A stretch of 64,000 nucleotides of DNA, from the NCBI RefSeq assembly GCF_018446385.1, contig NC_055986.1, positions 26,336,302 through 26,400,301 on the forward strand, read 5' to 3'. The notes beneath the pieces are model-generated. The model saw only the letters and a program-made list of their open reading frames with translations. It made no database searches and was not told the DNA's origin. Position 1 is the stretch's first letter. The number at the start of each line of letters is the position of its first letter. Both the position numbers and the translations under genes were made by a program. This stretch comes from Zingiber officinale. Its lineage: Eukaryota > Streptophyta > Magnoliopsida > Zingiberales > Zingiberaceae. Of the stretch, positions 18,598-38,440 are shown one piece after another.

Positions 18598-20505
18598 TGT
18601 TGGTGCAACCTTAGGTCAAGGTTGACCTGGTTGACCCGACTCGAGTTGACCTGACTCGAGTTGTATTTTGATGTTTGACGAGAATAGAAAAGTTGTATCT
18701 TGATATTTGACAAGAATACAAACTTGGGAGATTGTGGGTGCAACCTTCGGTCAAGGTTGACCTGGTTGACCCGACTTGAGTTGACTTGATTCGGTAAAGT
18801 CCAAGTATGGAGACTTGGCACGGGAAAAGTCCAAGTATGGAGACTTGGCACGGAAAAGTCCAAGCAGGGAGCTTGGCACAGGGAAAAGTCCAAGTATGGA
18901 GACTTGGCACGGAAAAGTCCAAGCAGGGAGCTTGGCACGGGAAAAGTCCAAGTATGGAGACTTGGCACGGAAAAGTCCAAGCAGGGAGCTTGGCACGGGA
19001 GAAGTCCAAGTATGGAAGCTTGGCATGGGAAGTCGGAGAGGGCTTGGCAGCTCGTTCTCCGGACTAAGTCAGAGAGGGCTCAGGAGCTTGTTCTCTGGAC
19101 GACGAAGTCGGAGAGGCTCACTCGTTCTCCGGACTAGGCCGAGAGGGCTCGGAGCTCGCTCTGGACCGCAGAGTTGGAGAGGGCTCGGTGAGCTCGTTCT
19201 CCGGACTAGGTCGAGAGGGCTCGGTAGCTCGTTCTGGGACCGGATGAAGTCCGAGAGGACTCGGTAGCTCGTTCCTGACTAGGCCGAGAGGGCCTCGTGA
19301 GCTCGTTCTCTGGACCGGATGAAGTAGGAGAGGGCTCGGTAGCTCGTCCTGACTAAGTCGGAGAGGGCTCGTGGCTCGTTCTCCGGACTAGGTCAGAGAG
19401 GGGTAGCTCGTTCTCCGGACCGGACGTGGAAGTCGGAGAGGCACGGTAGCTCGTTCTCCGGACTAGGTCGAGAGGGCTCGGTAGCTCGCTCTGACCGGAC
19501 ATGGAAGTCGGAGAGGGCTCGGTGGATCGTTTCTCCGGACTAGGTCGAGAGGGCTCGGTAGCTGCGTTCTCTAGACCGGGAAGGCTTTAGGATTTAGGGC
19601 GGAAGCTCTATAGGCATTGGTCTGGTGACCGATCAGTGATACTCGAGTTTATCGATCGGCGGTGACCGATCGGTAACCAAACAAAGGGTTCGTCAGGTTA
19701 TCCGATCGGTCCACGGACCGATCAAAAACAATCGTGAAGCTATTATCGTTGCTGATCGGTCCACGACCGATCGGGCTTTAAAGCCAACCTCACGAGATGG
19801 ATGACCGTGCCGGGGACCGATCGGCTAGACTGATCGGTCCACGCCGATCAGGAGCTCGGAACCGATCAGGGTGGAGCCTGATCGGTCCAGGCCTAGCCGT
19901 TGCGACACAACGGCTAGATTTCTGTGTTGTTCTTTGTCTTCTTCACAGGTGCAGCAGGTGCAGGATATATATCGAGGTTGAGGGCCTCTACAGGAACAGT
20001 TCTTGCTCTTCCTCCTTACTGCGATTTGAGCTTTGCTGAGCTCCTCTTTGCTGAAGCTTCGTGTGAGCTTCCCTCGACTGGGTGATCAGCTGCTGTTGAC
20101 ATCGTGAAGTTGCTGCTTCATCGAACTCCAGTCAACGAGAAGGCAAGCAAGGTGTTTTTACATTTATATTGTTCTTGTTTTCTTTCTCTATTGGTTGTAC
20201 TCCATTCTTGCTGTTGCAAGAGAGATTGTGGTGAGGTTTCTCCACCCAGAAGGAGTTCATATTAGCCGGTTATTCGGGGTCTCATCCACCGACGGATTGA
20301 TAGGCTTCGTCCACCTTACGGACACGCCGAGGAGTAGGAGTATCATCTCCGAACCTCGTTACATCATCGTGTTTGAGGTTTGATCTTCTCCACTTTCGTT
20401 TCTACATTGTATTTCCGCTGCGCTAACCTAAATTGTAGGAAGAAACGATAATTTGAGGTCGGCTATTCACACCCCCCTCTCTAGCCGCATCCGAAGGTCC
20501 TAACA
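18598..20505 (+). repeat. Element A 5' LTR
   Basis: 1908 bp, in order: a start segment (18598-18741) that is partly repeated at 18,742; short hairpin units CCAAGT/ACTTGG and CCAAGC/GCTTGG (18,796-19,030); larger tandem units with GGAGA/TCTCC or AGAGA/TCTCT stems (19,030-19,580); GATCGGTC/GACCGATC palindromes (19,620-19,890); and a non-repetitive right part. The repetitive half shows many small losses relative to the 3' copy, while the last ~600 bp is almost identical. Confidence 0.9.
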
Positions 20506-20507
20506 AG

Positions 20508-20519
20508 TGGTATCAGAGC
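20508..20519 (+). other. Primer binding site of element A
   Basis: TGGTATCAGAGC, two bases after the LTR end. It is complementary to the 3' end of plant initiator Met tRNA, the usual primer of copia-type elements. Confidence 0.9.
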
Positions 20520-20642
20520 GAGGTTGCTCTTCGACGGATTAACACCCGGGGGAGCACAAGCTAGAGAATGGATCTACTTTGAGAAGACATCACGATTCCA
20601 CCCTTCTACGATCGTGACGACTTCGCGTATTGGAAGGTAAGA

Positions 20643-22040
20643 ATGAAGTATTTTCTTATGACTAACCTAGTGAATTGGAATTGTGTACGAGTAGGTTTTA
20701 CTCCTCCGGTGGATAAAAAGGGAGAACCTCTCGAGAAGAAGAAGTGGACGAAGGAACAAATCCACCAATCCACAATCAACGACGAGGTAACGAAAATCCT
20801 TGAATTTTCATTACCTAATGATATCTTGTGTAAGATAGGTGGATACAACGATGCCAAGGAGTTGTGGAACAACTTGGCTAAGTTCCATGAGGAGAGCTCC
20901 AATTCAAGTCATGAAGAGGAGTCAAGTGAGTCAAGTAGCTCACATCATGGAGGTATGGAATTAGAAGTTGAGGGCTACTCAACATCTAAGGAAGAAGAGG
21001 AGGAGAGTTCTTCATCAAGATTGGTGCAAGAAGAAGCCTCTACCTCCGGAAGGGATGAAGAAGAGAGCGTATATTCATCCTTAACCCTAGGTAACTCAAG
21101 CAACTTAATTTCAAATAAATTACATATAATGTGCTTTGAGTGTAGGGAATATGGACATTACAAGAGTAAATGTCCAAAGAGGATTAGGAAGACTCCACCG
21201 GCGCCAAAGGTCAAGGAAACCGGAGTCCCGATACGCAAGGGCAAGGAGCACGTGGTGTGCTTCCAATGCAAGCAAAGGGGACATTATAGGAGCCAATGTC
21301 CGAGGGGGAGGCAACCTCACAAGGACAAGAGACCAAGCACATCTATAGTGGGAGCTAAGGCAAACCCTAAGGTACCCTTTAAGGCACATTATTGCAATTC
21401 TAATAAGAAACATGCTAGTAGATTTATTGCAATTGCCAATGATGATAAGCATGATAACCATAGAAACCGATACATGTGCTTAGGTGCCAAACATGTTAGT
21501 CTAGGTAAGGATAATACTAGAAATGCCAACCCTAGAATTAACTCATCTAAGGTTAAGGAAAACCTAGATAGGAATCCCAAAACAACTAGACATATGCCTA
21601 GGAATACCTCAAAGAAAAATGACAAATTAAAACTTGAGGTATTAGAGAAGGAAAATCAAGTCTTGAGGTCAAGACTTGACACCTTAGAAAAGACTCTTAA
21701 GAATTTGGAGAAGTCAACTCTAGGGTCTAAGGGTCAAAAGCAAAAGCCCAAGGACATGAGAGGTTTGAGTCACAAACCTAAGTCTCAAGTGGTCAAGCCC
21801 ACTTATCATAATGTTCCATTCGATTATGGAACAAGACCTAGGGCTAGGAAGACCATCACCAAGGTCACAAGGGGAGTCACCCCTAGAGTTGATCTTGATG
21901 AGTCCCAAATGACCAAGGCTTTAAAGCCTAGGAGGGTCATTAGGAGGGTTGCTAGGGAAGTCATCCCTAGTGAATATTTAGTGAACCCAATGAGCTCAAA
22001 TAGGTTTTGGGTTCCTAGGAGCGTGATTCCATCACGCTAG
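20643..22040 (+). CDS. Gag-like protein of element A, two CCHC knuckles
   Basis: A 465-aa open frame. The N-terminal part carries the hydrophobic/Trp pattern of copia Gag (ELWNNLAKFHEE near 77-88). It is followed by a Ser/Glu-rich acidic stretch, CCHC knuckles at about 164-177 (CFECREYGHYKSKC) and 206-219 (CFQCKQRGHYRSQC), a basic region, a likely coiled coil (LEVLEKENQVLRSRLDTLEK), and a conserved end IPSEYLVNPMSSNRFWVP. An upstream ATG at 20,568 in the same frame begins a better family match (PPFYDRDDFAYWKVRMK), but a TGA at 20,580-20,582 interrupts it. This copy is therefore 5'-broken or starts internally. No pol follows. Confidence 0.8.
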   Translation: MKYFLMTNLVNWNCVRVGFTPPVDKKGEPLEKKKWTKEQIHQSTINDEVTKILEFSLPNDILCKIGGYNDAKELWNNLAKFHEESSNSSHEEESSESSSSHHGGMELEVEGYSTSKEEEEESSSSRLVQEEASTSGRDEEESVYSSLTLGNSSNLISNKLHIMCFECREYGHYKSKCPKRIRKTPPAPKVKETGVPIRKGKEHVVCFQCKQRGHYRSQCPRGRQPHKDKRPSTSIVGAKANPKVPFKAHYCNSNKKHASRFIAIANDDKHDNHRNRYMCLGAKHVSLGKDNTRNANPRINSSKVKENLDRNPKTTRHMPRNTSKKNDKLKLEVLEKENQVLRSRLDTLEKTLKNLEKSTLGSKGQKQKPKDMRGLSHKPKSQVVKPTYHNVPFDYGTRPRARKTITKVTRGVTPRVDLDESQMTKALKPRRVIRRVAREVIPSEYLVNPMSSNRFWVPRSVIPSR

Positions 22041-23583
22041 ATGGGTTAGGGTGTGCCAACCTTAATTGGATAGGTAGTTAACCTAATCATGGCAAAAGGT
22101 GGCATTTTAGGAATTTTCAAGGTGTAATCAAGCCTTGAAAATGAAATTTAAAATTTTACTCATTCCTAAGGTGATTAGGATGTGCCAACCACACTTGAGG
22201 AATTTTCTAGGGTCAATCTAATTGGCACATAGTGATCTAAAAATCTTTAGTATATGATTTTAGATCTATTACACTTAGGAATATAGAATTTATGGCAAAA
22301 TGATCAAAATTATCAAAAATGACAACTAAAGCTAGAATTAGGTATTTTCTATACCTTTATATGTTATTTGCCATATATTGTTTGCCATATGTCATGTCAT
22401 GACATCATATCTAATTTACTATCATTTGAAATGTCATGATAATGCTTAGGTTAGTTATATGTCATGCCTTATTTAAGTTTCATACTTTATGCCATGACAT
22501 CATGACATTGGCACATGTTTCCACTTATGATATTATTTTATGCCATGTCATCATCTCTTGCATGTATGATCAATTAAATTGATTTAAGGATAAAAACACA
22601 ATTTGATATGGAGATCAAATTGTTGTTTAGAAAATGCATGAGAACTTAGCTTAAGATGACCTAAACCCATATCTCACATCAAAATTGACTTGGATGTGTT
22701 TGATACACCTTAGATGTGTGTGAGATATTAGGATTATGAGTTAGGATCAAGGTGCATAGTTCTTGTACCTAGATGAGCCTAATTCGAAATTGAGGATCAT
22801 AGGGAAAGCTTGCGTACAAGTCATGTACACTTAGCCCTAAGATTGTGGTCCTAAATTAAATGGTTTAAAATCATTTCAAAATTGATTTGAAAAACCTTGA
22901 TGAAGCTTTTCTAATGATAGCATTCATCATTGAGCAAGTTGACACAAAGATGGATTAACCTTGAGCTATTTCAAAGTCTTTCGAACTTTGTATCAAGATT
23001 TAAAAATGGAAGTTATTTTCATAGAAAATTATTTTTCCAAGATAATATATGTTATGAGGAATGTATCCTCAAAATTTTACAATTTTTGAAATTTTCTGTG
23101 ATTTTTTAGGGGTTTTTTGAATTTCGGGAGAAAAATCAGAAATCTCTATCAGAGATTTGTGGACCAATCAGAGGGGATCCTGATCGGTCCAGGGAAGTCT
23201 GGATCGGTCACTGGACCGATCCAGAGAAGTGTGGATCGGTCTGGTGACCGATCCAGTGAGGTTCTGATCGGTCTGGTAACCGATCAGAGCGTGCCAAAAT
23301 ACTGATTTTCGATTGTTGTCTGAAATTTCAGCTTTGGAAGTTGGTGTTTTTGATTTCTAAAGGGTTGAAACTCTCCAAGACATTGTTGGTGCAATGGTCA
23401 AGGGGGAGTTGACCTTTAGGGGGAGTTTTACCTATTAGTCAAGCGAGAGTTGACTTTTAGGGGGAGTTTTTACTCGTCAAGATTAGTGATATGGGGATTG
23501 TCACTATGTTGATTGTTGTATTTAGTATCAAGGGGGAAATTGAGGGTTTCAATGAAAGGTATGGGACTTTCATTAGGAAGAAA
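22041..23583 (+). other. Element A post-gag non-coding region
   Basis: AT-rich, no open frame. It contains repeated ATGTCATGACATCAT-like motifs (22,380-22,560), a palindrome cluster at 23,157-23,290 (GGATCGGTC/GACCGATCC with 3-5-nt centres), and AGGGGGAG tracts at about 23,404, 23,419 and 23,460. Equivalent regions occur in C and D. Element B is inserted at its end, and the remainder of the region resumes at 28,502. Confidence 0.75.
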
Positions 23584-23588
23584 CTCTT

Positions 23589-24573
23589 TGTTGGAGCAAT
23601 CCCAATGGTCCACGGGGCCATGTGTTTTGGTGTTTGGGCAAAGGGTTTAAGTTAGGTTTACCCTTGTTATTTGATGTGTACTTGAGTTGTGCAGGACTGC
23701 ATGTGACACATGTGACTCAGGTTGACGGCTTCGGGTTCGGTGAAGGATGGAGTATCCGAGGGACCGTGGACAAGGTAGCGAGGACAAGGGCCGAGGGAAG
23801 CGACTTCGAGGCATACGCGAAGGATGGCATTGGGGACGAGCCGCGGGCTTGGATGCATCCGAGGGACGAGAGCCAAAGGAAGTAAGCTTGAAGGCAAGAG
23901 GTCAAGGCTGCAAAAGAAGAGTCAAATGAGTCGTGAGGGTACGAGTGCATGAGAGATTGTACTCGGAGTAAAATCCTAGTTTTAGGGTTTTACTGTAGCG
24001 GCACTGTAGCAGTTACTGTAGTGCACTGTAGCAGTTACTGTAGCGTACTGTAGCAGTCGACTGGTGTATGGACCAGCCGTTGGGCTGGCATCAGTCGACT
24101 GGTGCAAGGACCAGTCGACTGGTAACGGGCAAATCAGGTTCTGATTTGTTCCAAGCTCTATAAGAAGGAGCTTGGTATGGCCGGCCAAGGCGACGAAATT
24201 AGACTTGGTTAAGGTCTAATTAGTAGTCTACAAGTGCTCAAGTGTTTGTGGAATCCAAGAGGTCTTGGTGTGTTGTGGTGAGGTTTCTCCACCCACAAGG
24301 AGCGACTTGAGATAGCCGGAGTTTGCCGGGGGCTAATCCACCGACGGATAGGGATCGTCCACCTTACGGACAGCCGTGGAGTAGGAGCATCATCTCCGAA
24401 CCACGTTAAACGAACGTGTTATTGGTTTGCTAGTTCTTTTCTTTGTCTTTAGCTTTTGTATTCGTTATTAGTATTTGTATTTCCGCTTGCGCATTAACGA
24501 ATACGTAGGAAGCGAGTATTTGGGGGTGCCGTCTATCCAACCCCCCTTCAAGCCGGCCACCGATCCTCCAACA
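23589..24573 (+). repeat. Element B 5' LTR
   Basis: Starts TGTTGG and ends CCAACA. It holds an array of CTGTAGC/ACTGTAGCAGT motifs at about 23,990-24,055 and copies of CAGTCGACTGG at 24,055-24,125. The right part carries the GTGGTGAGGTTTCTCCACCC block also seen in the LTRs of A and D, so the U5-side sequences of these families are homologous. Confidence 0.9.
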
Positions 24574-24575
24574 AG

Positions 24576-24587
24576 TGGTATCAGAGC
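24576..24587 (+). other. Primer binding site of element B
   Basis: TGGTATCAGAGC, two bases inside the 5' LTR end; initiator Met tRNA type. Confidence 0.9.
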
Positions 24588-24628
24588 GAGGACGCTCTCC
24601 GTTGGACTAACCGCCAAGGAAGCGCAAG

Positions 24629-26143
24629 ATGGCCGGGTTTATTGTCCCTCCAAAATTTGAAGGAGGAAGCCTTGGGGACATCACCTTTTGGATGGTGAAG
24701 ATGAAGAGCTTCCTCGACACGGATTGGGACACAATGATGGTCGTTGAAGAACCATTTGAAGTCCCAAGAGACAAGAAAGGAAAGAAGCTCCGACCACGAC
24801 ATTGGACGGAGGAGCAAACGACACGATCGGAGGCAAATTCAAAGGTAATATCAATATTGATTGAAATTTTGCCTTCTAATGTGATAAGTCGTGTAGGTGA
24901 ATACAAGAATGCCCACGAGTTGTGGAGCAAGGTAAAGAAAATTCTAGGAGAAGAACTTTTGCCTACACATGAGGAGATAGAGCCCAAGGAGATGGGCTTA
25001 GTAGCTCAAGAAGAGGAGGAGGAGCAACCGGAAGTTGAGTCATGCTCAACATCCGAGGAGGAGAAGCAAGATGAGGCATCATCTACATCCTCAAAGGTTG
25101 AAGATGAATCCAAGACAAGTGAAGAGGATGAAGAAGAAATCTTGGAGGAGGTCAACCTAGTGAGCACCTCCGCCGAAGCAATGTCAAAAGATCACATAGT
25201 ATGCTTCGGTTGCAATGAGAAGGGACACTACAAGAGTAGGTGTCCATTGGGTAAGAAGAAGGTAACTCCTAAACCCAATCAAGTTATTTTGAATACTAAC
25301 ATGGGTTGTAGGAATAAAGAAGCCCAGAAGAAGGAGAAGAAATGGCACATAGTGTGCTTCACGTGTGGTGAGCGGGGTCACTACCACACCAAATGCCCCA
25401 AGAAGAGAGAAATCAAGAAGCTTGAATATTTAAAGAAATGGGAGAAGAAGAAGAGGAGCTTGAGTCAAGGGGGAGCTTCAAGGGTAAGGGAGGTATACCC
25501 TAATTTGAAGTGTAATTCAAATTCAAATTCTTATGTTCCCATGCATGCTAGGAGAAATAATGATTATCATTATGTAGCAATGAAAAATTTTGGATTTAAA
25601 TATCATGATAAGAATAGGGTTAATGTAGATCATAACCCTAGGAGACCTATACATGATAGACCTAGACACGTTAAATTCTCATTACCTAAGGAGAAGAAGG
25701 TAATAGAGAACCAAGGCATTAATCCCAAGAAGGTGAGACATATGCCTAGAAAGGGTAGGTCTAGGAATGTCCAAGGTGGACATGTTGACTCTAGGTTTAG
25801 GAACCTAGAAAGGGAGAATCAAGCTTTGAAGGCAAAGCTTGATGGTTTAGAGAAATTCCTTAAGAGATTCACTATTGGATCTAAGGGATTAAGTATGGTG
25901 TTGGGGAGTCAAAAACCCAACAATGATAGATCGGGTTTGGGATACCGATCTAGTCCCTCCAAGGTCAAAAGGAGACCATGTGCTAGGGTGGCACATGATA
26001 AGGGCAAGGGAGAGTCATCCAAGGCCAATAAAAAGAAATATGCTAGGGTTGCATATGATTATGGCAAGGATGATGTGTCCAAGGTCAAGAAGATAAGGAG
26101 ATCTTCTAAGGGACATCATTGTGGCCTAGTCATTGTGGATTAG
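24629..26143 (+). CDS. Gag-like protein of element B, two CCHC knuckles
   Basis: An intact 504-aa frame starting 42 bp after the primer site, with ATG at MAGFIVPPKFEGG. The N-terminal copia-Gag-like part (residues about 1-110, with HELWSKVKKILGEE) leads into a Glu/Ser-rich linker, knuckles at about 192-205 (CFGCNEKGHYKSRC) and 243-256 (CFTCGERGHYHTKC), a Lys/Arg-rich region, a predicted coiled coil (FRNLERENQALKAKLDGLEK) and a basic C-terminus with a repeated RVAYD/RVAHD-GKG motif. Unlike A it has no premature stop, so this copy could still supply Gag. No protease, integrase or RT follows. Confidence 0.87.
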   Translation: MAGFIVPPKFEGGSLGDITFWMVKMKSFLDTDWDTMMVVEEPFEVPRDKKGKKLRPRHWTEEQTTRSEANSKVISILIEILPSNVISRVGEYKNAHELWSKVKKILGEELLPTHEEIEPKEMGLVAQEEEEEQPEVESCSTSEEEKQDEASSTSSKVEDESKTSEEDEEEILEEVNLVSTSAEAMSKDHIVCFGCNEKGHYKSRCPLGKKKVTPKPNQVILNTNMGCRNKEAQKKEKKWHIVCFTCGERGHYHTKCPKKREIKKLEYLKKWEKKKRSLSQGGASRVREVYPNLKCNSNSNSYVPMHARRNNDYHYVAMKNFGFKYHDKNRVNVDHNPRRPIHDRPRHVKFSLPKEKKVIENQGINPKKVRHMPRKGRSRNVQGGHVDSRFRNLERENQALKAKLDGLEKFLKRFTIGSKGLSMVLGSQKPNNDRSGLGYRSSPSKVKRRPCARVAHDKGKGESSKANKKKYARVAYDYGKDDVSKVKKIRRSSKGHHCGLVIVD

Positions 26144-27473
26144 TCACCTAGGGAGGTGACTAAGGTAAAGAGCTCTAGGGGGAGCTCCAAGAGTCAATTT
26201 GGGACCCATGGCCAATGGATCTCAGGTGGGTTCTACTTGGGGGTCTAGAGAAGCCATGGAGTGTGCCAAAAGGTTTGGAGATGGATTTGAGTCTCAAACC
26301 TATGGATTTGGCACACATGGATTGTGTTTCATGCAAGAAATATGACATTTGGGGTCATATAGCATGATAATTGGTTTTGGATGTATAGATGCCATATAAA
26401 CCAATGCTAGGGATGCATTGTGGGTTGGTATGGGCAAATACATCAAAAGGAAGCCAAAACTAGGACTTTAGGTCAAGGTTCAATTGAACCATTTAGCTAG
26501 TTTTGGATTTTGTGTCAATCTTGGGATTGGTGATAGATATATTTTGTAATATATTTTTCCCAAGTAGACAAGAGTACAATAGACCTCTCCACAAAATTTG
26601 GGAATTTTTGGAGGTCTAGGGAATTACTGGTGCATTTCTGAAGTTGGCCTGAAAAGGCTGATTTTTTCAGAAATAGGGTACCAGTCGACTGGTGCAGATA
26701 CCAGTCGACTGGTAACAGTGTTTTTGAGCACAGAATGTCTCTGTAAGCTCATTTTGTCGATACCAGTCGACTGGTGATGATACCAGTCGACTGGTAACAG
26801 TGTTTTTCGACCACAGAATGGTTCTGTAAGGTTCTGTCGAAGGGGGCAGTCGACTGGCACTTAGGGCAGTCGACTGATACCAGCCTGAAAGTGTTTTTTA
26901 GCACTGTTCTTGACCATGTCAACTCGTTTAGATGTATGGGATCCAAGGGGGATAAATACATGAGTTTAGGGTCAATTTAGATGATAAGTTTTCAACAATT
27001 GGGATATTGTTGGAGATCTTTTTGGATGTTAGGCAAAGGGGGAGAATTAAGGTTTAGTTGGGAAAACCTTTAGTGCCTTTGCATAGGGGGAGCCTTGGGA
27101 TATGTTCTTAAAAAGCCCTGTGATAAAATCCTAGCTCAATGGGGAGCGTAGGTGTAGGGGGAGCCTTGGGATAGGTTCTTAAAAAGCCCGTGGTAAAATC
27201 CTAGCTCATTGGGGAGCGTAGGTGTAGGGGGAGCCTTGGGATAGGTTCTAATGCATGTTTGCATTTTGATTCGGCGGTTGCCAAGTGTGTAGCCTTGGCA
27301 ACGTAAGTCCATTCGGCGGTTGCCAAGTGTGTAGCCTTGGCAATGTAAGTCCATTCGGCAGAGTAAGTCCAAGTGTGTAGCCTTGGCATCGTAAATCTAT
27401 TGTATTAGCATGTTTATTTGCTATTTGTTTTCCCTAACTTAAACGAATTGCCAAACACCAAAAAGGGGGAGAT
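26144..27473 (+). other. Element B post-gag region with AGTCGACT palindromes and repeats
   Basis: Non-coding. At 26,681-26,880 the perfect palindrome ACCAGTCGACTGGT and close variants recur about six times. From 27,060 to 27,390 there is a tandem duplication of a segment containing GGGGGAGCCTTGGGATA, then repeated GTAAGTCCATTCGGC/TGCCAAGTGTGTAGCC units. It ends with AAAAAGGGGGAGAT, the polypurine tract directly before the 3' LTR. Confidence 0.75.
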
Positions 27474-28496
27474 TGTTGGAGCAATTCTAATGGTCCGTGT
27501 GACCATGTGTTCTGGTATTTGGGCAAAGGATTTAAGTTAGGTTTACCCTTGTTATTTGATATGTGTACTTGAGTTGTGCAGGACTGCAGGTGACACATGT
27601 GACTCAGGTTGACGGCTTCGGGTCCGGTGAAGGATGGAGCATTCGAGGGACCATGGACAAGGCAGCGAGGACAAGGGCCGAGGGAAGCGACTTCGAGGCA
27701 TACGCGAAGGATGGCATTGGAGACGAGCCGCGGGCTTGGATGCATCCGAGGGACGAGAGCCAAAGGAAGTAAGCTTGAAGGCAAGAGGTCAAGGCTGCAA
27801 AAGAAGAGTCAAGTGAGTCGTGAGGGTACGAGTGCATGAGAGATTGTACTCGGAGTAAAATCCTAGTTTTAGGGTTTACTGTAACGGCACTGTAGCAGTT
27901 ACTGTAGTGCGCTGCAGCAGTTATTGTAGCGTACTGTAGCAGTCGACTGGTGTATGGACCAGTCGACTGATGCACTGTAGCAGAGAGCCGTTGAGATAGC
28001 CGTTGGGCTGGCATCAGTCGACTGGTGCAAGGACCAGTCGACTGGTAACGGGCAAATCAGGTTCTGATTTGTTCCAAGCTCTATAAGAAGGAGCTTGGTA
28101 TGGCCGGCCAAGGCGACGAAATTAGACTTGGTTAAGGTCTAATTAGTAGTCTACAAGTGCTCAAGTGTTTGTGGAATCCAAGAGGTCTTGGTGTGTTGTG
28201 GTGAGGTTTCTCCACCCACAAGGAGCGACTTGAGATAGCCGGAGTTTGCCGGGGGCTAATCCACCGACGGATAGGGATCGTCCACCTTACGGACAGCCGT
28301 GGAGTAGGAGCATCATCTCCGAACCACGTTAAACGAACGTGTTATTGGTTTGCTAGTTCTTTTCTTTGTCTTTAGCTTTTGTATTCGTTATTAGTATTTG
28401 TATTTCCGCTTGCGCATTAACGAATACGTAGGAAGCGAGTATTTGGGGGTGCCGTCTATCCAACCCCCCTTCAAGCCGGCCACCGATCCTCCAACA
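27474..28496 (+). repeat. Element B 3' LTR
   Basis: 1023 bp, preceded by the polypurine tract AAAAAGGGGGAGAT and followed by target duplication CTCTT. It retains an extra AGTCGACT-type palindrome that the 5' copy lacks. Confidence 0.9.
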
Positions 28497-28501
28497 CTCT
28501 T

Positions 28502-28697
28502 GACCTTGATTCACTCTTTTTGATGTGTGTCAAAAAGGGGGAGAAATGTCTAGAGAATGTTCAAGGAAGAACATTGGAGTTTGGGGAGAATGTTCAAGGA
28601 AGAACATTGATTGGAGAACTATTGGAAAACCTAAGTTAGGTTATCGAGTTAACCTAACTTGATTATGGTTTTTGTCAAACATCAAAAAGAGGGAGAT
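28502..28697 (+). other. Element A sequence between B and its 3' LTR
   Basis: The last internal stretch of A. A repeated GTTCAAGGAAGAACATTG pair is followed by AAAAAGGGGGAGAAATG and the polypurine tract AAAAAGAGGGAGAT immediately before TGTTGGTGC. It matches the element D sequence at 62,069-62,260 read on the minus strand. Confidence 0.75.
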
Positions 28698-28841
28698 TGT
28701 TGGTGCAACCTTAGGTCAAGGTTGACCTGGTTGACCCGACTCGAGTTGACCTGACTCTAGTTGTATTTTGATGTTTGACGAGAATATAAAAGTTGTATCT
28801 TGATGTTTGACAAGAATACAAACTTGGGAGATTGTGGGTGC
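28698..28841 (+). repeat. Element A 3' LTR, first fragment
   Basis: The first 144 bp of A's 3' LTR, matching 18,598-18,741, cut at GGTGC by element C. The LTR resumes at 36,272. Confidence 0.9.
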
Positions 28842-30383
28842 TGTTGGTGCAAAATCCCTCAGGTCAAGGTTGACCTGGTTAACCAAGCTGAGTCTTGGTT
28901 TGAGTTTAGATGTTTGACAATAAGATATTGATCGAAGAAGAGTCAAGTAGGTCAAGGTTGACCGGATACTTGACTAGGAAGTCCTAGTGAGTGAAGCTAG
29001 GCAGAAGGAAATCCTAGTGAGTGAAGCTAGGTGGAAATCCTGGTGAGTGAAGCCAGGTGAAAGTCCTAGTGAGTGAAGCTAGGCAGAAGGAAGTCCTAGT
29101 GAGTGAAGCTAGGCAGAAGGAAATCCTAGTGAGTGAAGCTAGGTGAAAGTCCTGGTGAGTGAAGCCAGGTGAAAGTCCTAGTGAGTGAAGCTAGGCAGAT
29201 GGAAAACCCTAGTGAGTGAAGCTAGGTGAACGTCCTGGTGAGTGAAGCCAGGCAAGGAAGGAAATCCAGATGGATCAAGGATGATCGGACATCTGGTGTT
29301 GGGAAGTCCAAGTAGGTCAAAGGATTGACTGGATACTTGGCAAGGAAGGAAGTCCAGATGGGTCAAGGTTGACCAGACATCTGGTGGAAGTCCAAGTAGG
29401 TCAATGGAGTGACCGGATACTTGGCACGACGAGTAAAAGTCCAAGTAGGTCAATGGAGTGACCGGATACTTGGCACGACGAGTAAAAGTCCAAGTGGGTC
29501 AAAGGGATTGACCGGACACTTGGTGGGGAGTCCTAGCAGGTCAAGGGAGTGACCAGATGCGAGGCATGATGTACCAACAGGTCAAGGTTGACCGGATGTT
29601 GGTTAGGGAGGTTTGGGACTTGGTTTTGGGCAAAAACCAAGTTCTGGATCGATCCGTGGATCGATCCAGGCTGTGGATCGATCAGTGGATCGATCCAGAT
29701 TCTTCCCAGCGAACAGAAAGCTTCTGGATCGATCCGTGGATCGATCCAGAGGTCCCGATCGATCAGCCGATCGATCGGGACGATGCTGCTTCGCGCGATA
29801 AGCGCTGGATCGATCCGTGGATCGATCCAAAGCCTCCCCGATCGATTCGGAACATTCGAATCGATCGGGATCCGACCGTTGCGTCGGGTTTAAAGCCGCA
29901 GGCAAGCGTGGTCTTCGGGATCCTTTCACAAGCTCTTCTCAGATTCATTCCAGCTCCTCCACAGCTCTCTACAAGCACGTGATCGCCAGTTCTTGAAGGT
30001 TCTTGGAGGCTTTCCAAGTCAAGAGGCGGATCTATTGCAAGAGGAAGAAGTTAGGGTTAGGGTTTTTACTGCACATCTTGTAAGCTTTTGCTTAACTTGT
30101 ATTTCCCTTTCTTCTTCTTGTATTGAGAGTGTTGTAGGGCTTCTCCGCCTTTGGTAGTTACCATAAAGGAGTGTTATTCATAGTGGAGGGTGTGTGCGTT
30201 GGTGTGGATCCTTGGATTAGTCACCTCTTGTGAGGTGGATACCAAGTAAAATCCTAGTGTTAGCGTTTTGTGTTTGTTTCTGTATTTTCCGCTGCACATC
30301 CAAGAAGAAACAAGCAACGCCAAGCGCACCGAGCGAACGCGACTAGCTATTCACCCCCCCTCTAGCTACTTTTGGTCCTAACA
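28842..30383 (+). repeat. Element C 5' LTR
   Basis: 1542 bp. In order: a start segment shared with A (GTCAAGGTTGACCTGGTT); ten or so units pairing CCTAG with CTAGG or CCTGG with CCAGG (28,975-29,255); longer nested inverted units such as CCAAGTA/TACTTGG around GGTCA/TGACC (29,265-29,590); GGATCGATCC palindromes (29,647-29,875); then a unique right part. Confidence 0.9.
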
Positions 30384-30385
30384 AG

Positions 30386-30397
30386 TGGTATCAGAGC
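30386..30397 (+). other. Primer binding site of element C
   Basis: TGGTATCAGAGC, two bases after the LTR; initiator Met tRNA type. Confidence 0.9.
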
Positions 30398-30459
30398 AAG
30401 ACCGCTCTTCACCGGAATCATCGCCGGAAGGGTCAAGCATAAATAAGAAAAGCTAGAGG

Positions 30460-32274
30460 GTGAAGAAGTTGGAGCAAAATTTTCAAGTTCAAGACTTTAT
30501 CAAGCTCAACTTCAAGATGCAATTCCAAGATGGGCTTGGATTTGACACAAGGGTGGCTCCACCATACACTTCTACGAGTTTCGATTCTTGGAAATCAAGA
30601 ATCGAAAATTTTCTTATGATGGAGATAGAGCAATGGTTTGCTCTAATGGAAGGCTTCGAAGCTCCAACAAATTCCAAGGGCAAAGTTCTAAAGAAAAGCA
30701 AATGGAGCCCGGAGCTAGTCCAAAGGTGCGAGGCCAATAACAAAGTGACCAAGCTTTTGGTCAATCTATTGCCAAGCACCATCCTTTGCAAAATTGGAGA
30801 ATTTGAAGATGCAAAGGATTTATGGAGCAAATTGGCCAAGCTTCATGAAGAGATCCCCTCCACTGTACCGAATCAAGAAGTATCTAAAGAGGGTGACTCT
30901 TTGGAGCAAGACCAAGAGGAGGACTCCGAGGTTGAGAGATGCTCAACCTCCGAAGAAGAGGAAATCCAAGAAGCTTCATCCTCAAGGGAATGCAACGAAG
31001 GGAACAAGGAGGGAGCATACTCCTTGTTTCATATTCAAGATGATGAAGCCTCCACCTCTAGGATTGAGGGGGAGCAATCCTTGGTGACACCGGATCAAGA
31101 AGAAGGAGAAGCTTCTACATCCGGGTCAAGAGAAGAAGAGGAGGAAGAAGCTTCTACCTCCACAAGTCAAGAAAAATCAAATGGAGAAGCTTCTACATCC
31201 AAAACAAGTGCCACCCCTACAAGCAAAGGTATAAATATTTCAATTAATAATAAAAATCATATAATATGTTTTGAGTGTAGGGAAAGTGGGCACTACAAGA
31301 GCAAGTGTCCTAAATTGGCCAAGAAGAAGGGCCAAGTGGCACAAAAGGGCAAGGTGAAGCCCAAGGAGACCATCCCCGGAACAAAGAAGAGCAAGGAGCA
31401 CATTGTGTGCTTTTTGTGCCAACAAAAGGGACATTACCGTAGTCAATGTCCCAAGGGGAAGAAGATGATCAAGGCTCAAGGAGGCACCAGTCAAGGGGGA
31501 GCCTCCAAGGTAAAGAAGAAGGTATCTTTTATTGAGCCTACTCCTTTACATTATGGTAAAAAGCATGCTAGGTCAAATTTATATCATTTCAATGCTATTT
31601 ACCATGAACATAGGAAGCATGATAGCATTAAGGAAAAACATGTAGCTCTTCATGCTAAAACTACCACTCTTAGGGCTAGGAATGTAGGTAAAAGTCTAGG
31701 CAAGAACTCTAAGGATTGTAGCTACAAGCCTAGAAACAAAAATGCTCATGAACTAAATGGAAAAACAAAAACTAAGGACTTAGTGATGGAAAATCAAGTC
31801 TTGAGGTCAAGACTTGATAAAATGGAAAAGACCCTAAAAAGGATGGAAAATATCCTATTAGGGCAAAAAGAGCATAACCTAGGTTTAGGGGTACAAAAGT
31901 CATCCAATGGCCATAGAGGTTTGGGATACAAACCAAAGGCTAAGAAGGATGTGCCCTCTTACCATAGAGTTCCATATAGTTATGGAACAAACCCTAGGTC
32001 TAGTGGTCAAGCCAAAAATACTAGGGAAGTCATCCCTAAGAGTATTTTTGCAATAAATGTGACTAAGGCTTCTAAGAAGTCTAAGAAAGTCACAAACAAG
32101 GTCACAAGGGAGGCTATCCCTAGAGTTGACCTAGAAAGTGTGACCAAGGCCTCCAAGAAGCCAAACAAGGTCACTAGGAAAGTATCTAGGGAAGTTATCC
32201 CTAGTGAATACCTAGAGCATCCAAGGAGCATCAATAGGTGTTGGGTTCCTAGGAGCATCTTCTCTACCCCATAG
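30460..32274 (+). CDS. Gag-like protein of element C, two CCHC knuckles
   Basis: An intact 604-aa frame; a start at the internal ATG (30,517, MQFQDGLGF) is also possible. The N-terminal region resembles the A and B proteins (TSFDSWKSRIENFLMM; LLPSTILCKIGEFEDAKDLW). The middle is highly acidic with repeated EEEASTS motifs. Knuckles lie at about 270-283 (CFECRESGHYKSKC) and 317-330 (CFLCQQKGHYRSQC). A coiled coil (MENQVLRSRLDKMEKTLKRM) and a conserved basic end follow, with VTREAIPRVDLESVTKASKK repeats and IPSEYLEHPRSINRCWVP. It is the longest of the three and shares its C-terminal motif with A and D. Confidence 0.87.
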   Translation: MKKLEQNFQVQDFIKLNFKMQFQDGLGFDTRVAPPYTSTSFDSWKSRIENFLMMEIEQWFALMEGFEAPTNSKGKVLKKSKWSPELVQRCEANNKVTKLLVNLLPSTILCKIGEFEDAKDLWSKLAKLHEEIPSTVPNQEVSKEGDSLEQDQEEDSEVERCSTSEEEEIQEASSSRECNEGNKEGAYSLFHIQDDEASTSRIEGEQSLVTPDQEEGEASTSGSREEEEEEASTSTSQEKSNGEASTSKTSATPTSKGINISINNKNHIICFECRESGHYKSKCPKLAKKKGQVAQKGKVKPKETIPGTKKSKEHIVCFLCQQKGHYRSQCPKGKKMIKAQGGTSQGGASKVKKKVSFIEPTPLHYGKKHARSNLYHFNAIYHEHRKHDSIKEKHVALHAKTTTLRARNVGKSLGKNSKDCSYKPRNKNAHELNGKTKTKDLVMENQVLRSRLDKMEKTLKRMENILLGQKEHNLGLGVQKSSNGHRGLGYKPKAKKDVPSYHRVPYSYGTNPRSSGQAKNTREVIPKSIFAINVTKASKKSKKVTNKVTREAIPRVDLESVTKASKKPNKVTRKVSREVIPSEYLEHPRSINRCWVPRSIFSTP

Positions 32275-34663
32275 ATGGGTTAGAGAGTGTCAACTCCGAT
32301 TAGAAGGGTAGTTAACCCAACTTTGAGGAAATTGACACTCAAGGAGCATTTTCAAGGTTTTTGTTAACCTTTGAAAATGAAATGGAATTATTATTTACTC
32401 CTTGAAAGAGTAAAATGTGCCTAATGGTGGAAAATTGATTTTAATCTTAAATGGCACATATTGGGAAATTCATAAGAACTACCAAGTTGGGATTTTGGTA
32501 TGTTCTTAGTAAATTTAAGGCAATCCGGGCCTTAATTTAAAAGTGCTACTCTTGTGGAAAAATGAAATATGCCAACATTTGAGGATATGCTTACTTTCGA
32601 CTGGCATAAATTAATCAAGGGAATTAGAAATGCCAATTTAAGCTTTGGCATTTTCTTAAAGCACTTTAGGGCAAATCTAGGTTTAAGTTGTAAGCTTAGC
32701 TAAGGTTTTAAGGATACTTAGATAGTTAATCTAGGTATATTTTATTTATGCTAAATCTTGCCATGATTGTTTGCCCATCATATGTCATGACATCATGTCT
32801 ATTTTTGCATTCATGACTTATCATGAAAAATACAAAAATACCATGTCATGCCATACATACATCATGTAGCTATAGGATATCTTTCTTTTGAAAGTTATTT
32901 TATTTTGATGTATGCCATAACATTATCATGCATTAAGTTTAATTCCTTGTAATTAAGGACAAATGGCATTTAACAACACTTATTAACAAGTGACATCCTT
33001 GGTGGATGTCTAATATATATCTAAAATGCCTAGATAGATATGCATGATCCCTAGATTAGGGCAAAACCAAAATCTACATCTCACAAGACCTATAAGATGA
33101 CTTGTATGTGTTTTAGTGCACATTAGATACAAGTGAGATGTTAGGATGATGAACAAAACTCAAGATGTTGATTTAGTGCATTCTTTTGAGTTTTAAGTTC
33201 ATCAAAACACATAGTTATGTGTTTTCCCATCATTGGGAAAGCTAATGTACAAGTCATGTGCATTAAGCCCAAGGAATATGGTGGGATATTGGTTTTGAAA
33301 ATGTTTTCAAAATGATTTTGGAAAACCTTGGTGAAAGCTATCTTTTGATAGTAATCACCATTGAATAGTTAGACACAAACTTGAAGAAAACACTAAAGTT
33401 TTTGGAAGTTTTCAAGTTTGTGTCAATCTTTGAAAATATGATGTATTTTCATAGAAAACTATTTTTCTGGATAGTATATGCCTAACTAATGTCTACACGA
33501 AATTTCATAATTTTTGGATTTTGTAGAATTTTCTAGGGTTTTCAGTTGAGTGAAATGGAATTTCAGCAACTATCGAGCTCGATCGATCCATGGATCGATT
33601 GGAGTTCTGAATCGATCCATGGATCGATTCGGGCGCTTCTGGACTGGCTCATTGGATCGATCGATCGATCGATCCGAGTAGTCTGAATCGATCCGTGGAT
33701 CGATTGGGAAAGGTATTCTGCGACGAGGCAAGCTCATTGGATCGATCGGCCGGTCGATCCAGGTAGTTTGAATCGATCGGTGGATCGATTCACACGCTTC
33801 TGTGTTCTCGCGATCCCATCGATCAAGTTCTGATGCTGGAAAGCTGATTTCAGCACTTTGAACCTATTTTAGTCAATGTAACCTTTCCAAACCCTAAATA
33901 TACATTTGTATACATAAGGAGGGTGTTTTCATGTGAAAACAAGGATGGATTGGTTAAGGAAGGCTAAGTTGAAGTTTAGGTTGAGGTTTGTTTCAAATTT
34001 TGAATATTTGAACCTCAAAACTTCTACAATTGGGTTTCCTAAAGATTTAGGGATTCCAAGTCATTGTTGGTGCAATGACAGAAGTTACCACCATGCCTTT
34101 AGGGGGAGGTACTCTTTAAATACATGAAAAATTATTTTTCATGAACCTTGGAAGGTGGTTTACCTTCTGTTTAAAATATGCTCAAGGTTGAGCATGGGTT
34201 GAACTTGAATGAGGAGTGTATATCCTCATTGTTCAGTGATTTCATTGGATAATGCTCAAGGATGGGCATTTGCCTACATTGGGGGAGAATGTAGGGGTAA
34301 GAATAATGAAGGGTATGGGACCTTCAGTATTGAGTTGATCACAATGAGTGAAATTGTGATCACGATGAGCAACTCTTCAGGGGGAGAGTCTTCAACAAAT
34401 GGAGTTGTTGAAGTGTGTCCAAAGACGGGTTGATGTGTTTTATTAGTAGGGGGTTGATGTGTGCCAATAGGGGGAGAATGAAAGGAAGTAAGTTAGGTTT
34501 TCATTACCTAGAGGGAGTTTGCCCTCTTAGGGGGAGAATGAAAAGCTTAACTTATGTGTTCATTACCTAGTGGCATGAAGAAGAAGGCTATAGGATTAGC
34601 CTAACTTACATGTGGGATTGTAAGTGTTATTGTGGTATTGTCAAACATCAAAAAGGGGGAGAT
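32275..34663 (+). other. Element C post-gag region with ATCGAT palindromes and multiple purine tracts
   Basis: Non-coding, largely AT-rich, with CATGTCATGACATC-type motifs near 32,770-32,860 as in A. A cluster of GATCGATCC/GGATCGAT inverted repeats lies at 33,575-33,800. AGGGGGAG-type tracts recur from about 34,080 to 34,540, and the terminal AAAAAGGGGGAGAT abuts the 3' LTR. Confidence 0.75.
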
Positions 34664-36266
34664 TGTTGGTGCAAAATCCCTCAGGTCAAGGTTGACCTGG
34701 TTAACCAAGCTGAGTCTTGGTTTGGGTTTAGATGTTTGACAATAAGATATTGATTGAAGAAGAGTCAAGTAGGTCAAGGTTGACCGGATACTTGACTAGG
34801 AAGTCCTAGTGAGTGAAGCTGGGCGGAGTGAAGCCGGGTAGTTGGAAATCTGGTGAGTGAAGCCGGTGAAAGTCCTAGTGGTGAAGCTAGGCGGAAGGAA
34901 GTCCTAAGGATAGCGGTGAGAGGCGGTGAGTGAAGAGAGCGGTGAAAGTCCTAGTGAGTGAAGCTAGGCGAAGGAACTCCTAGTGAGTGAAGCTAGGCGT
35001 GAGAAATCCTAGTGAGTGAAGCTAGGTGAAAGTCCCAGTGAAGCAGGCGGTGAAAGTCCTAGTGAGTGAAGCTAGGCGGATGGAAAACCCTAGTGAGTGA
35101 AGCTAGGTGAACGTCCCGGTGAGTGAAGCCGGCAAGGAAGAAATCCAGATGGATCGAGGATGATCGGACATCTGGTTGGGAAGTCAAGTAGGTCAAAGGA
35201 TTGATTGTATACTTGGCAAGGAAGGAAGTCCAGATGGGTCAAGGTTGACCGGACATCCGGTGGAAGTCCAAGTAGGTCAATGGAGTGACCGGATACTTGG
35301 CACGAAGTAAAAGTCCAAGTAGGTCAATGGGTGACCGGATAGCACGAGGAGAAAAGTCAAGTGGGTCAAAGGATTGACCGGACACTGGTGGGGAGTCCTA
35401 GCAGTCAAGGGTGACAGATGCGAGACATGATGTACCAACAGGTCAAGGTTGCCGGATGTTGGTTAGGGAGGTTTGGGACTTGGTTTTGGGCAAAACCAAG
35501 TTTCGGATCGATCCGTGGATCGATCAGCCAGATCGATCGGTGGATCGATCCGATTCTTCCAGTCGATCGAAGGTCACGGATCGATCCGTGGATCGATCGA
35601 GAGTCCCTCGTGATCGCTGGATCACCCTGAATCGATTGCCGCGATCCACGGATCGATCCGTGGATCGATCGGCAGGTCTGAGCAGGCGCTCGGATCGATC
35701 CGTGGATCGATCCAAGCCTCCGATCGATCGGAACATTGAATCGATCGGGATCCACCGATGCGTCGGGTTTAAAGCCATGACGGCGTGGTCTTCGGATCCT
35801 TTCACAAGCTCTTCTCGATTCATTCCGGCTCCTCCACAGCTCTCTACAAGCACGTGATCGCCAGTTCTTGAAGGTTCTTGGAGGCTTTCCAAGTCAAGAG
35901 GCGGATCTATTGCAAGAGGAAGAAGTTAGGGTTAGGGTTTTTACTGCACATCTTGTAAGCTTTTGCTTAACTTGTATTTCCCTTTCTTCTTCTTGTATTG
36001 AGAGTGTTGTAGGGCTTCTCCGCCTTTGGTAGTTACCATAAAGGAGTGTTATTCATAGTGGAGGGTGTGTGCGTTGGTGTGGATCCTTGGATTAGTCACC
36101 TCTTGTGAGGTGGATACCAAGTAAAATCCTAGTGTTAGCGTTTTGTGTTTGTTTCTGTATTTTCCGCTGCACATCCAAGAAGAAACAAGCAACGCCAAGC
36201 AACGAAGCGCACCGAGCGAACGCGACGAGCTATTCACCCCCCCTCTAGCTACTTTTGGTCCTAACA
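34664..36266 (+). repeat. Element C 3' LTR
   Basis: 1603 bp, same layout as the 5' copy. The hairpin-array and palindrome half (34,795-35,790) has many small base losses compared with the 5' LTR, while 35,825-36,266 is nearly identical apart from an 8-bp duplication near 36,200. Confidence 0.9.
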
Positions 36267-36271
36267 GGTGC

Positions 36272-38110
36272 AACCTTCGGTCAAGGTTGACCTGGTTGAC
36301 CCGACTTGAGTTGACTTGATTAGGTAAAGTCCAAGTATGGAGACTTGGCACGGGAAAAGTCCAAGTATGGAGACTTGGCACGGAAAAGTCCAAGCAGGGA
36401 GCTTGACATGGGGAAAAGTCCAAGTATGGAGACTTGGCACGGAAAAGTCCAAGCAGGGAGTTTGGCACGGGAGAAGTCCAAGTATGGAAGCTTGGCATGG
36501 GAAGTCGGAGAGGGCTCGACAGCTCGTTCTCCGGACTAGGTTAGAGAGGGCTCGGGAGCTCGTTCTCTGGACCAGACGAAGTCGGAGAGGGCTCGGCAGC
36601 TCGTTCTCCGGACTAGGTCAGAGAGGGCTCAGGAGCTCGTTCTCTGGACCAGACAGAGTTGGAGAGGGCTCGGTAGCTCGTTCTCCGGACTAGGTCAGAG
36701 AGGGCTTGGTAGCTCGTTCTCTGGACCGGATGAAGTCGGAGAGGGCTCGGTAGCTCGTTCTTGGACTAGTCCGAGGAGCTCGTAGGCGTTCTCGGACTAG
36801 GTCGGAGAGGGCTCGGTAGCTCGTTCTCCGGACTAGGTCAGAGAGGGCTCGGTAGCTCGTTCTCCGGACTAAGTCGGAGAGGGCTCGGTAGCTCGTTCTC
36901 CGGACTAGGTCAGAGAGGGCTCGGTAGCTCGTTCTCTGGACCGGACGTGGAAGTCGGAGAGGGCTCGGTAGCTCGTTCTCTGGACTAGGTCAGAGAGGGC
37001 TCGGTAGCTCGTTCTCTGGACCGGACATGGAAGTCGGAGAGGGCTCGGTAGCTCGTTTCTCCAGACTAGGTCAGAGAGGGCTCGGTAGCTCGTTCTCTAG
37101 ACCGGGAAGGCTTTAGGATTTAGGGCTGGGAAGCTCTAAGGCATTGGATCGGTCTGGTGACCGATCCAGTGATACTCAGGTTTATCTGATCGGTCTGGTG
37201 ACCGATCAGTAACCAAACAGTGGTTCGCTGTAGGTTATCTGATCGGTCCATAGACCGATCAGAAAATGATCAGGAAGCTACTGATCGTTGCCTGATCGGT
37301 CCACAGACCGATCAGAAAACGATCAGGAAGCTACTGATCGTTGCCTGATCGGTCCACAGACCGATCAGGCTTTAAAGCCAACCCTCACAGAGATGGCTGA
37401 CCGGTCTGGGGACCGATCAGCCTAGGGCCTGATCGGTCCACAGACCGATCAGATGGCTCCCAGACCGATCAGGGTGGAGCCTGATCGGTCCAGGCCTAGC
37501 CGTTGCGACACAACGGCTAGATTTCTGTGTTGTTCTTTGTCTTCTTCACAGGTGTAGCAGGTGCAGGATATATATCGAAGTCGAGGGCCTCTACAGGAAC
37601 AGTTCTTGCTCTTCCTCCTTACTACGATTTGAGCTTTGCTGAGCTCCTCTTTGCTGAAGCTTCGTGTGAGCTTCCCTCGACTGGGTGATCAGCTGCTGTT
37701 GACATCGTGAAGTTGCTGCTTCATCGAACTCCAGTCAACGAGAAGGCAAGCAAAGTGTTTTTACATTTATATTGTTCTTGTTTTCTTTCTCTATTGGTTG
37801 TACTCCATTCTTGCTGTTGCAAGAGAGATTGTGGTAAGGTTTCTCCACCCAGAAGGAGTTCATATTAGCCGGTTATCCGGGGTCTCATCCACCGACGGAT
37901 TGATAGGCTTCGTCCACCTTACGGACACGCCGAGGAGTAGGAGTATCATCTCCGAACCTCGTTACATCATCGTGTTTGAGGTTTGATTTTCTCCACTTTC
38001 GTTTCTACATTGTATTTCCGCTGCGCTAACCTAAATTATAGGAAGAAACGATAATTTGAGGTCGGCTATTCACACCCTCCCCTCTCTAGCCGCATCCGAA
38101 TGTCCTAACA
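36272..38110 (+). repeat. Element A 3' LTR, second fragment
   Basis: Continuation of A's 3' LTR after element C. It holds CCAAG(T/C) hairpin units (36,326-36,500), some fifteen GGAGA/TCTCC or AGAGA/TCTCT units (36,492-37,110), about eight GATCGGTC...GACCGATC palindromes (37,147-37,480), then the unique right part ending GTCCTAACA before the target duplication AAATT. Confidence 0.9.
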
Positions 38111-38440
38111 AAATTGACGTTTGGGGACATAAATATAATCAGAAGAGATAATCGAATATATATGAACTAGTTTCATATTAATTTGAGGTCGTTTGGTCCA
38201 TCAACAAATTTTACCTAAAATCAACTATGGGAAAAAAACAAATTAGTCGACTGATTTGCTTAAAATTTCGTCGTTTTGACACAAAGCGAAATTGATTCGA
38301 CTGATCTAAAAAATCAGTCAACTAATAAGGGTAAAATGGAAAATGAATACGTGATTTTGTAATTTTGAAACTATCCTATGTGATTTGGTAATTTTAAAAA
38401 TTTACTTAAAAAACACAATATTAACCTTTGATTTCAAACA
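38111..38440. mobile_element. Foldback element, right arm
   Basis: Imperfect inverted copy of 16,020-16,460, separated from the left part by the nested retrotransposons. It shares the AAATTGACGTTTGG block and the CACAAAGCGAAATTGATTCG / CGAATCGATTTCACTTTGTG pair. The outermost match is around CTTAAAAAACACAATATTAACC. Confidence 0.65.

Follow-up and report, generated by a model that had tools for sequence, protein, structure and literature searches.

A stretch of 64,000 nucleotides of the Zingiber officinale genome (assembly GCF_018446385.1, NC_055986.1:26,336,302-26,400,301, forward strand), here termed the window, carries between 18.6 and 38.1 kb three nested long terminal repeat (LTR) retrotransposons, A, B and C, all of which lie on the + strand and have checked ends and target duplications. 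Clusters of palindromic boxes, found in the LTRs of these elements and again in the linker ahead of the 3′ LTR, are the subject of this analysis, and coordinates are window positions unless a larger stretch is named. Element A (18598..38110; target duplication AAATT at 18593-18597 and 38111-38115) is interrupted by both others, with element B (23589..28496; target duplication CTCTT; LTRs at 23589-24573 and 27474-28496) sitting in its linker and element C (28842..36266; target duplication GGTGC; LTRs at 28842-30383 and 34664-36266) in its 3′ LTR. The A 5′ LTR spans 18598..20505, while the 3′ LTR is split into a first (28698..28841) and a second part (36267..38110), the first five bases of the latter being the C target duplication. 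The LTR pairs share 97.9% identity in B, 92.7% in C and, for part of the LTR only, 94.3% in A. A fourth element, D, lies on the - strand and comprises the 3′ portion of a copy of the A family, extending from 60367 to 64000 and on past the window edge, with its 3′ LTR at 60367..62068. The primer binding site (PBS) TGGTATCAGAGC is located two bases 3′ of the LTR in all elements (20508 in A).

A single long open frame with zinc knuckles is present in each of A (20583..22040, stop to stop), B (24611..26143) and C (30457..32274). The A frame shows a weak match to Retrotran_gag_2, those of B and C contain two zinc knuckle matches each, and the copia gag matches of A and C are weak and fall below the cut-off. 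A pol query gave no match in A, B or C, nor in D within the stretch read, and A, B and C lack an ENV frame, the longest ATG-initiated open reading frames (ORFs) of their linkers encoding 48, 72 and 74 amino acids, respectively.

Family-specific boxes in the LTR and linker

Each family has its own dyad box, namely GATCGGTC-n4-GACCGATC in A and D, CAGTCGACTG in B and GATCGATC in C, and clusters of these boxes occupy the LTR 5′ of a TATA-like site before recurring in the linker ahead of the 3′ LTR. Exact GATCGGTC/GACCGATC half-sites of A number nine in the 5′ LTR cluster (19627..19887; starts 19627-19880), six in the linker cluster (23157..23290; starts 23182-23266) and 15 in the 3′ LTR cluster (37147-37490; 37147-37483 for the half-sites), with TATATA located at 19966 and 37569. 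Twelve are found in the D LTR (cluster at 61000-61310) and three, together with two copies of GATCGATC, in the D linker cluster (62570..62680, - strand). In B, exact CAGTCGACTG occurs three times in the 5′ LTR cluster (24054..24123), six times in the linker cluster (26680..26876) and four times in the 3′ LTR cluster (27940..28046), while GATCGATC occurs ten, six and eleven times in the corresponding C clusters (29647..29870, 33575..33800 and 35504..35740). The TATA-like site shortly 3′ of the LTR cluster reads CTATAAG in B (TATAA at 24159) and only TTTAAAG in C (29889). These exact counts bear out the original prediction that each family carries palindromes of its own in the LTR and again before the 3′ LTR, at the positions it gave. 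Apart from the two GATCGATC in the D linker, no foreign motif was observed, in that none of A, B and C contains the motif of another in the parts examined. A distance of 0.5-0.8 kb between linker cluster and 3′ LTR had also been predicted; calculated from the coordinates, it holds for A (approximately 0.50 kb with the B insertion removed), B (0.59 kb) and D (0.50 kb) and is exceeded in C (0.86 kb).

The further claim that all palindromes centre on CG applies to B and C, where the half-sites are themselves palindromic and the units are often paired (20 bp apart in B, 12 bp apart in C), but not to A, where the unit is an inverted repeat about a variable spacer, usually 4 nt, into which the axis falls. 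When 8-nt palindromes were counted in each cluster and compared with 500 shuffles, all three B and all three C clusters exceeded every shuffle. Among the five A and D clusters, only the A 5′ LTR was exceptional (six found; 2/500 shuffles reach this number), the others containing none (A linker and D LTR), two (A 3′ LTR; 195/500) and two (D linker; 48/500), because the A half-site is not itself a palindrome. A simple CG-centred palindrome therefore fails as a definition of the motif for A and D. Genome-wide, exact patterns were counted against the same pattern read backwards: the B half-unit ACCAGTCGACTGGT occurs 22,812 times (5 reversed) and the full B pair 5,237 times (0 reversed), while A units with a G-C outer pair (GGATCGGTC-n4-GACCGATCC) and with a T-A outer pair (TGATCGGTC-n4-GACCGATCA) occur 55,303 and 72,726 times, respectively (0 reversed for both). 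The LTR/PBS junction YAACAAGTGGTATCAGAGC was counted 15,848 + 16,038 times, with a reversed control of 0. Three exact patterns thus reach approximately 150,000 copies, so that whatever reads them would act on a large share of the genome.

The eleven LTR and linker clusters measured, several of them shorter than 150 bp, have observed/expected CpG ratios of 0.70-1.69 at a GC fraction of 0.50-0.60, in contrast to ratios of 0.18-0.42 in three gag genes and 0.00-0.13 in three pre-cluster linkers. The polypurine tract (PPT) octamer AGGGGGAG begins 10 bp 5′ of the 3′ LTR in both B (27464, LTR 27474) and C (34654, LTR 34664), while the terminal copy of A is one base off (AGAGGGAG). Upstream copies are present in all three elements, those of B at 27037, 27085, 27156 and 27226, with one more at 26177, and those of C at 34101, 34379, 34469 and 34529. 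Furthermore, an exact inverted repeat of 11-14 nt spans the PPT/3′ LTR junction in each of A, B and C, and runs of six to seven C precede the end of the 5′ LTR. With regard to the reverse transcriptase clade, A-C have no pol match, and copia gag, integrase and RVT_2 domains are carried by the relatives L026 and G, described below.

These features resemble those of the Sireviruses. Bousios et al. (2010; PMC2829016) describe palindromic RM boxes in Sireviruses, which are high-copy, dyad-symmetric and of one type per element, with CGGTCGACCG and ACAATCGATTGT among the examples. They form clusters in the LTR just 5′ of the TATA box, and elements with an ENV gene have a further cluster in the linker, ahead of ENV; the clusters coincide with CpG islands, the AGGGGGAG PPTs are repeated, and the inverted repeat at the PPT junction and the poly-C signal near the LTR end are listed as landmarks as well (PMC2829016). 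The LTR clusters of A, B and C lie 5′ of a TATA-like site in the same manner, while the CGG-CCG core is found in A (GATCGGTC/GACCGATC) but not in B or C. By this description and the Sirevirus landmarks, the paired palindromes are, as judged from the sequence, boxes of a known kind, and the four elements can be classed as LTR retrotransposons of Sirevirus type. The statement in the original prediction that no equivalent had been described is contradicted by this report of RM boxes in both the LTR and the linker. What differs here is that the linker boxes persist in gag-only elements with neither ENV nor pol.

Two further sequence features accompany the clusters. By the LTR boxes, at 19893-19917, 24073-24088 and 29872-29887, as well as in the D and E LTRs, lies a short hairpin in which CCGTTG is constant and the stem differs from family to family; in A it takes the form CTAGCCGTTG-n5-CAACGGCTAG, between boxes and TATA, and in B CCAGCC-gttg-GGCTGG, amid the boxes. 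It resembles a plant mitosis-specific MYB site. Directly 5′ of the linker cluster lies an AT-rich non-coding stretch, which is 71% identical between A (22796-23115) and C (33229-33542). Among the readings considered were an antisense promoter arising in the AT-rich hinge and a plant promoter element specific to mitosis.

Matching boxes in gag-only copies and their relatives

Eight gag-only copies (A-F, I and J) were identified in 264 kb comprising the window and the next 200 kb, and ten more (L025, L028, L030, L032-L034 and L036-L039) among 14 further places taken from the genome-wide junction list. Gag-only denotes a negative pol query in the stretch, read to 3.7 kb past the PBS, which in L025, L028 and L030 falls short of the 3′ LTR; none of the 18 stretches gave a match, whereas L026 and G are both pol-positive in this query. 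Outside the 18, as not being gag-only copies of the three families, stand G, L026, L027, L029 and L031. In the 264-kb stretch, H (185.7 kb), the box clusters at 161 and 262 kb and the partial gags (243-264 kb) were left unclassified.

The same box is present in the LTR and linker of 16 of the 18 gag-only copies, in agreement with the predicted correspondence within an element and with a cis signal that is particular to each family and recurs at two fixed positions. In none of these 16 does gag, or any of the first 2.08 kb past the PBS, contain a box of the three types. The two exceptions are L033, where the linker cluster has been lost and the 3′ LTR starts early, and L034, where the linker is occupied by an inverted A-type LTR, the source of its linker A boxes. 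The LTR box type tracks the gag family in all 18 copies, such that A-like gags (74-97% identity to A) are accompanied by GATCGGTC, C-like gags (73-87% to C) by GATCGATC, and B and L036 by CAGTCGACTG, although the L036 gag is only 49% identical to that of B over the best stretch. One to four GATCGATC also occur in some A-family copies (D, I, J, L032 and L037-L039), and E and I, by eye, combine C-like tandem arrays in the LTR with A boxes. Copies I and J form an LTR-gag-LTR-gag-LTR array (L021-L022, 228.0-240.4 kb of the 264-kb stretch) and are not independent, the array having probably arisen by recombination between two elements. The two unclassified box clusters of this stretch are of C type and are located at 161.4-162.0 kb, by eye resembling a linker cluster, and at 262.5-263.0 kb, where by eye the cluster adjoins a TATA box and is LTR-like. 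Inverted-repeat clusters of other kinds, CACACGAC and CACACGGC, occur at 79.5-80.0 and 104.5-104.8 kb; a relation to plant Del elements, for which LTR CpG islands are reported (PMC4029996), is conceivable.

LTR elements that keep gag only are known as TR-GAG elements, and the features that define them (LTRs, PBS, PPT and gag, with no pol) are all found here. A family-specific palindrome pair is not known to be part of the TR-GAG description. Family-specific repeats between the coding region and the 3′ LTR are also present in Retand/Tat elements (PMC11963269), but these belong to the Gypsy lineage and form tandem arrays, and the accessible part of that source mentions no matching array in the LTR.

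Three relatives carry pol or an ORF in the position of ENV. The joined stretch L026/L035 contains copia gag, pre-integrase, integrase and reverse transcriptase domains, as well as GATCGGTC boxes both in the LTR and in a linker cluster (6572-6938 of that stretch), 3′ of which lie a 295-amino-acid ORF (7629-8513) and four PPT octamers (8877-9086). Over its downstream portion, the 5′ LTR shares 79-83% identity with A, D, E, I and L032. In L027, GGCGCC occurs three times in the LTR, not at all in gag and five times in the linker, at approximately +2934 to +3040 from the PBS, where the canonical TATA box CTATAAATA directly follows the fourth box. An ORF with a weak Transposase_32 match lies approximately 0.2 kb past this TATA box and runs off the stretch, in which neither a pol match nor a pol-like frame of 110 amino acids was found. 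Weak Pfam Transposase_32 matches, both below the cut-off, are shared by the ENV-position ORFs of L026/L035 and L027; homology between the two ORFs was rejected, as there was no significant match (E 0.41). The pol-bearing element G has GAGGCGCCTC boxes in its LTR, while its 7.2-kb interior contains neither GAGGCGCCTC (up to one mismatch allowed) nor exact AGGCGCCT, and the last 1.0 kb of the interior holds no + strand frame of at least 120 amino acids. Of the 13 published elements with boxes (PMC2829016), linker copies occur in all nine with ENV and in none of the four without, and the G sequence is in keeping with this rule for ENV-less elements. The arrangements in L026/L035 and L027 suggest an origin for the linker boxes of the gag-only copies in elements of this kind.

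The relatives also bear on the proposal, made in the original prediction, that the palindromes serve RNA dimerisation, packaging by a two-knuckle Gag or LTR-internal pairing during strand transfer. Self-complementary boxes near the 3′ end of the RNA could pair between molecules, and a family identity that tracks the gag family in every copy would suit a packaging code. In retroviruses and BARE elements, however, the palindromes proposed to join two RNAs are sited in the 5′ leader, whereas an LTR cluster that precedes the TATA-like site would be expected not in the leader but solely in the 3′ unique region (U3), which argues against dimerisation in its usual form. Neither is a link with the two-knuckle Gag upheld, since A boxes occupy both sites in L026/L035 as well, where Gag shows a single knuckle match (below the cut-off) and the copia gag domain is complete. 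The divergent Gag of L036 goes with B boxes, and the absence of GAGGCGCCTC (up to one mismatch) and exact AGGCGCCT from the interior of G likewise speaks against such a signal, so that we regard this proposal as highly improbable.

Arm symmetry, folding and unit similarity

Complementarity of the arms was analyzed at every place in the 264-kb stretch, a few unrelated ones included. Among distinct A-type units the second outer pair is complementary in 36 of 50, compared with 15.6 expected by shuffling, and among distinct C-type units the first outer pair is complementary in 39 of 46 (24.3 expected), with none of 2000 shuffles reaching either value. In the element set, where a longer core was used, the first outer pair is complementary in 61/93 A units (expected 29.9) and 49/57 C units (31.1), values reached by none of 5000 shuffles, while no arm covariation was seen in B, for which only eight units were available. 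In outer pairs farther from the core the complementarity fades to chance. Genome-wide, the outer pair of A units is G-C in 55,303 and T-A in 72,726 cases and mixed in 6,664 + 6,816, giving an odds ratio of 89, which is not a count of events, as the copies share ancestry. Furthermore, all seven cluster stretches that were folded are more stable than their shuffles (z -4.8 to -10.7; 0/200 shuffles as stable in each case), among them the linker stretches of A (23165-23300; z -8.7), B (26678-26815; z -9.7), C (33575-33720; z -7.7) and D (62560-62690; z -7.3).

Both the covarying arms and the stable folds would be expected if the clusters function primarily as hairpins of the RNA towards its 3′ end, within the linker and U3, where they may feed or resist small-RNA silencing, with any promoter role being secondary. 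The LTR palindromes of maize Sireviruses were reportedly identified as small-RNA hotspots by Bousios et al. in 2016. The accessible parts of PMC10760457 and PMC5311732 likewise present maize Sirevirus palindromes as small-RNA hotspots; they resemble the present boxes as LTR cis-region clusters with strong predicted structure, but linker clusters are not mentioned for maize in those parts. Wobble pairs provide a mixed picture: in the flanking pairs 1-5, G.U outnumbers A.C in A (62 vs 36), whereas the two are balanced in C (27 vs 26) and stand at 3 vs 2 in B. Within the arms the families are inconsistent, with A.C prevailing in A (15 vs 28), G.U prevailing in C (11 vs 1) and 0 vs 1 in B. Moreover, the spacing is mostly 4 nt (67/93 units in A and 57/59 in C, within a search range of 3-6 nt for both), a constraint that loops do not need. 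On this evidence we consider a primary role as RNA hairpins possible, if unlikely. The asymmetry between G.U and A.C was rejected as proof of selection at the RNA level, since families and positions disagree, and a tally of hairpin mismatches was dropped because these were too few (9 G.U, 5 A.C). The coupling of the arms makes models based on hairpins and on protein-binding sites directly testable against one another.

Strong arm symmetry combined with a variable number of boxes could also result from concerted evolution without function, in which the resemblance of arms and of sites is upheld by template switching among the repeats, and hairpin-templated correction would be expected to yield the same covariation. 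At the level of the element, however, LTR and linker units are no more similar within than between elements, with similarities of 0.821 and 0.812, respectively, for nine A copies (880/5000 permutations reach the difference) and 0.849 and 0.846 for five C copies (2235/5000). Recent copying between the two sites is not seen, the sharing being at the family level, and gene conversion from LTR to linker was accordingly rejected. The C units of the two sites also differ in their first arm base, the linker favouring A (12/21 units) and the LTR favouring G (31/36), and in all three elements the LTR cluster keeps its place ahead of a TATA-like site. An origin through concerted evolution alone consequently appears improbable to us. 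The upstream half of the C LTR (29260-29600 and 34930-35440) additionally contains, by eye, an imperfect hairpin array with differing stems (CCAAGTA...TACTTGG, CCAGATG...CATCTGG), which looks as if compensatory change had shaped much of U3.

A duplicated promoter module as the preferred explanation

We favour, with a probability of roughly 0.7, the explanation that the boxes constitute a duplicated Sirevirus promoter module, kept in gag-only derivatives although both ENV and pol are gone. The palindromes would correspond to the RM boxes, that is, to family-specific, dyad-symmetric and CpG-rich regulatory boxes, and the LTR cluster would form the promoter-proximal part of U3, immediately 5′ of the TATA-like site. 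As a second copy of this LTR module, the linker cluster may descend from Sireviruses with pol and ENV, in which it would stand as an internal promoter or enhancer ahead of the gene in the ENV position. The gag-only derivatives would have lost that gene along with pol but retained the linker module, whose continuing match to the LTR would most likely reflect a common trans-acting machinery acting on the two clusters. In L027 the order of boxes, TATA box and ORF in the linker repeats that of the LTR, and as such an internal promoter is the simplest reading there.

Several observations weigh against this explanation. A strict TATA box within 220 bp after the linker cluster is present in only one of 16 gag-only copies (E), so that a conserved TATA box after the linker clusters was rejected, and none lies in the 670 bp directly 3′ of the L035 linker cluster. 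With linker TATA boxes this rare, an internal promoter is suggested by the sequence in L027 alone, and elsewhere the linker cluster may be a relic, an enhancer or an element acting at the RNA level. The pol-bearing relative L026/L035 may itself be chimeric and may be inactive, as no more than 74% of 217 columns agree between its two LTR ends and pol is spread across several frames. The 18 gag-only copies represent three families, which reduces the independent evidence for matching boxes to three cases. The CGG-CCG core is absent from the boxes of B and C, as it is from those of G, and the published sample (PMC2829016) ties linker boxes to ENV, which the gag-only copies lack; that sample also includes one RM, Tnd-1, without this core.

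The retention of linker boxes in gag-only copies is what is new here, as the sequences stand, and is not predicted by the published link with ENV (PMC2829016). It uncouples the module from the gene that it had been assumed to support. The TATA box in the L027 linker, which together with this retention and the arm symmetry accounts for the remaining interest of the system, provides a concrete candidate of the kind that the authors of the 2010 study could not identify (PMC2829016). A further-reaching version of the promoter explanation, which we hold to be doubtful, is that the linker module has outlived its gene, with a second, family-matched cluster being selected without ENV or pol, its arm symmetry being selected as a hairpin or dyad and not box by box, and a family-specific trans factor reading both clusters. 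Such a factor would perhaps be supplied by a pol-bearing partner, and the box type would then be the key deciding which non-autonomous family is served.

Outside the nested elements, an open frame with a PB1 domain is located at 54802-55296 of the window and is probably part of a host gene.

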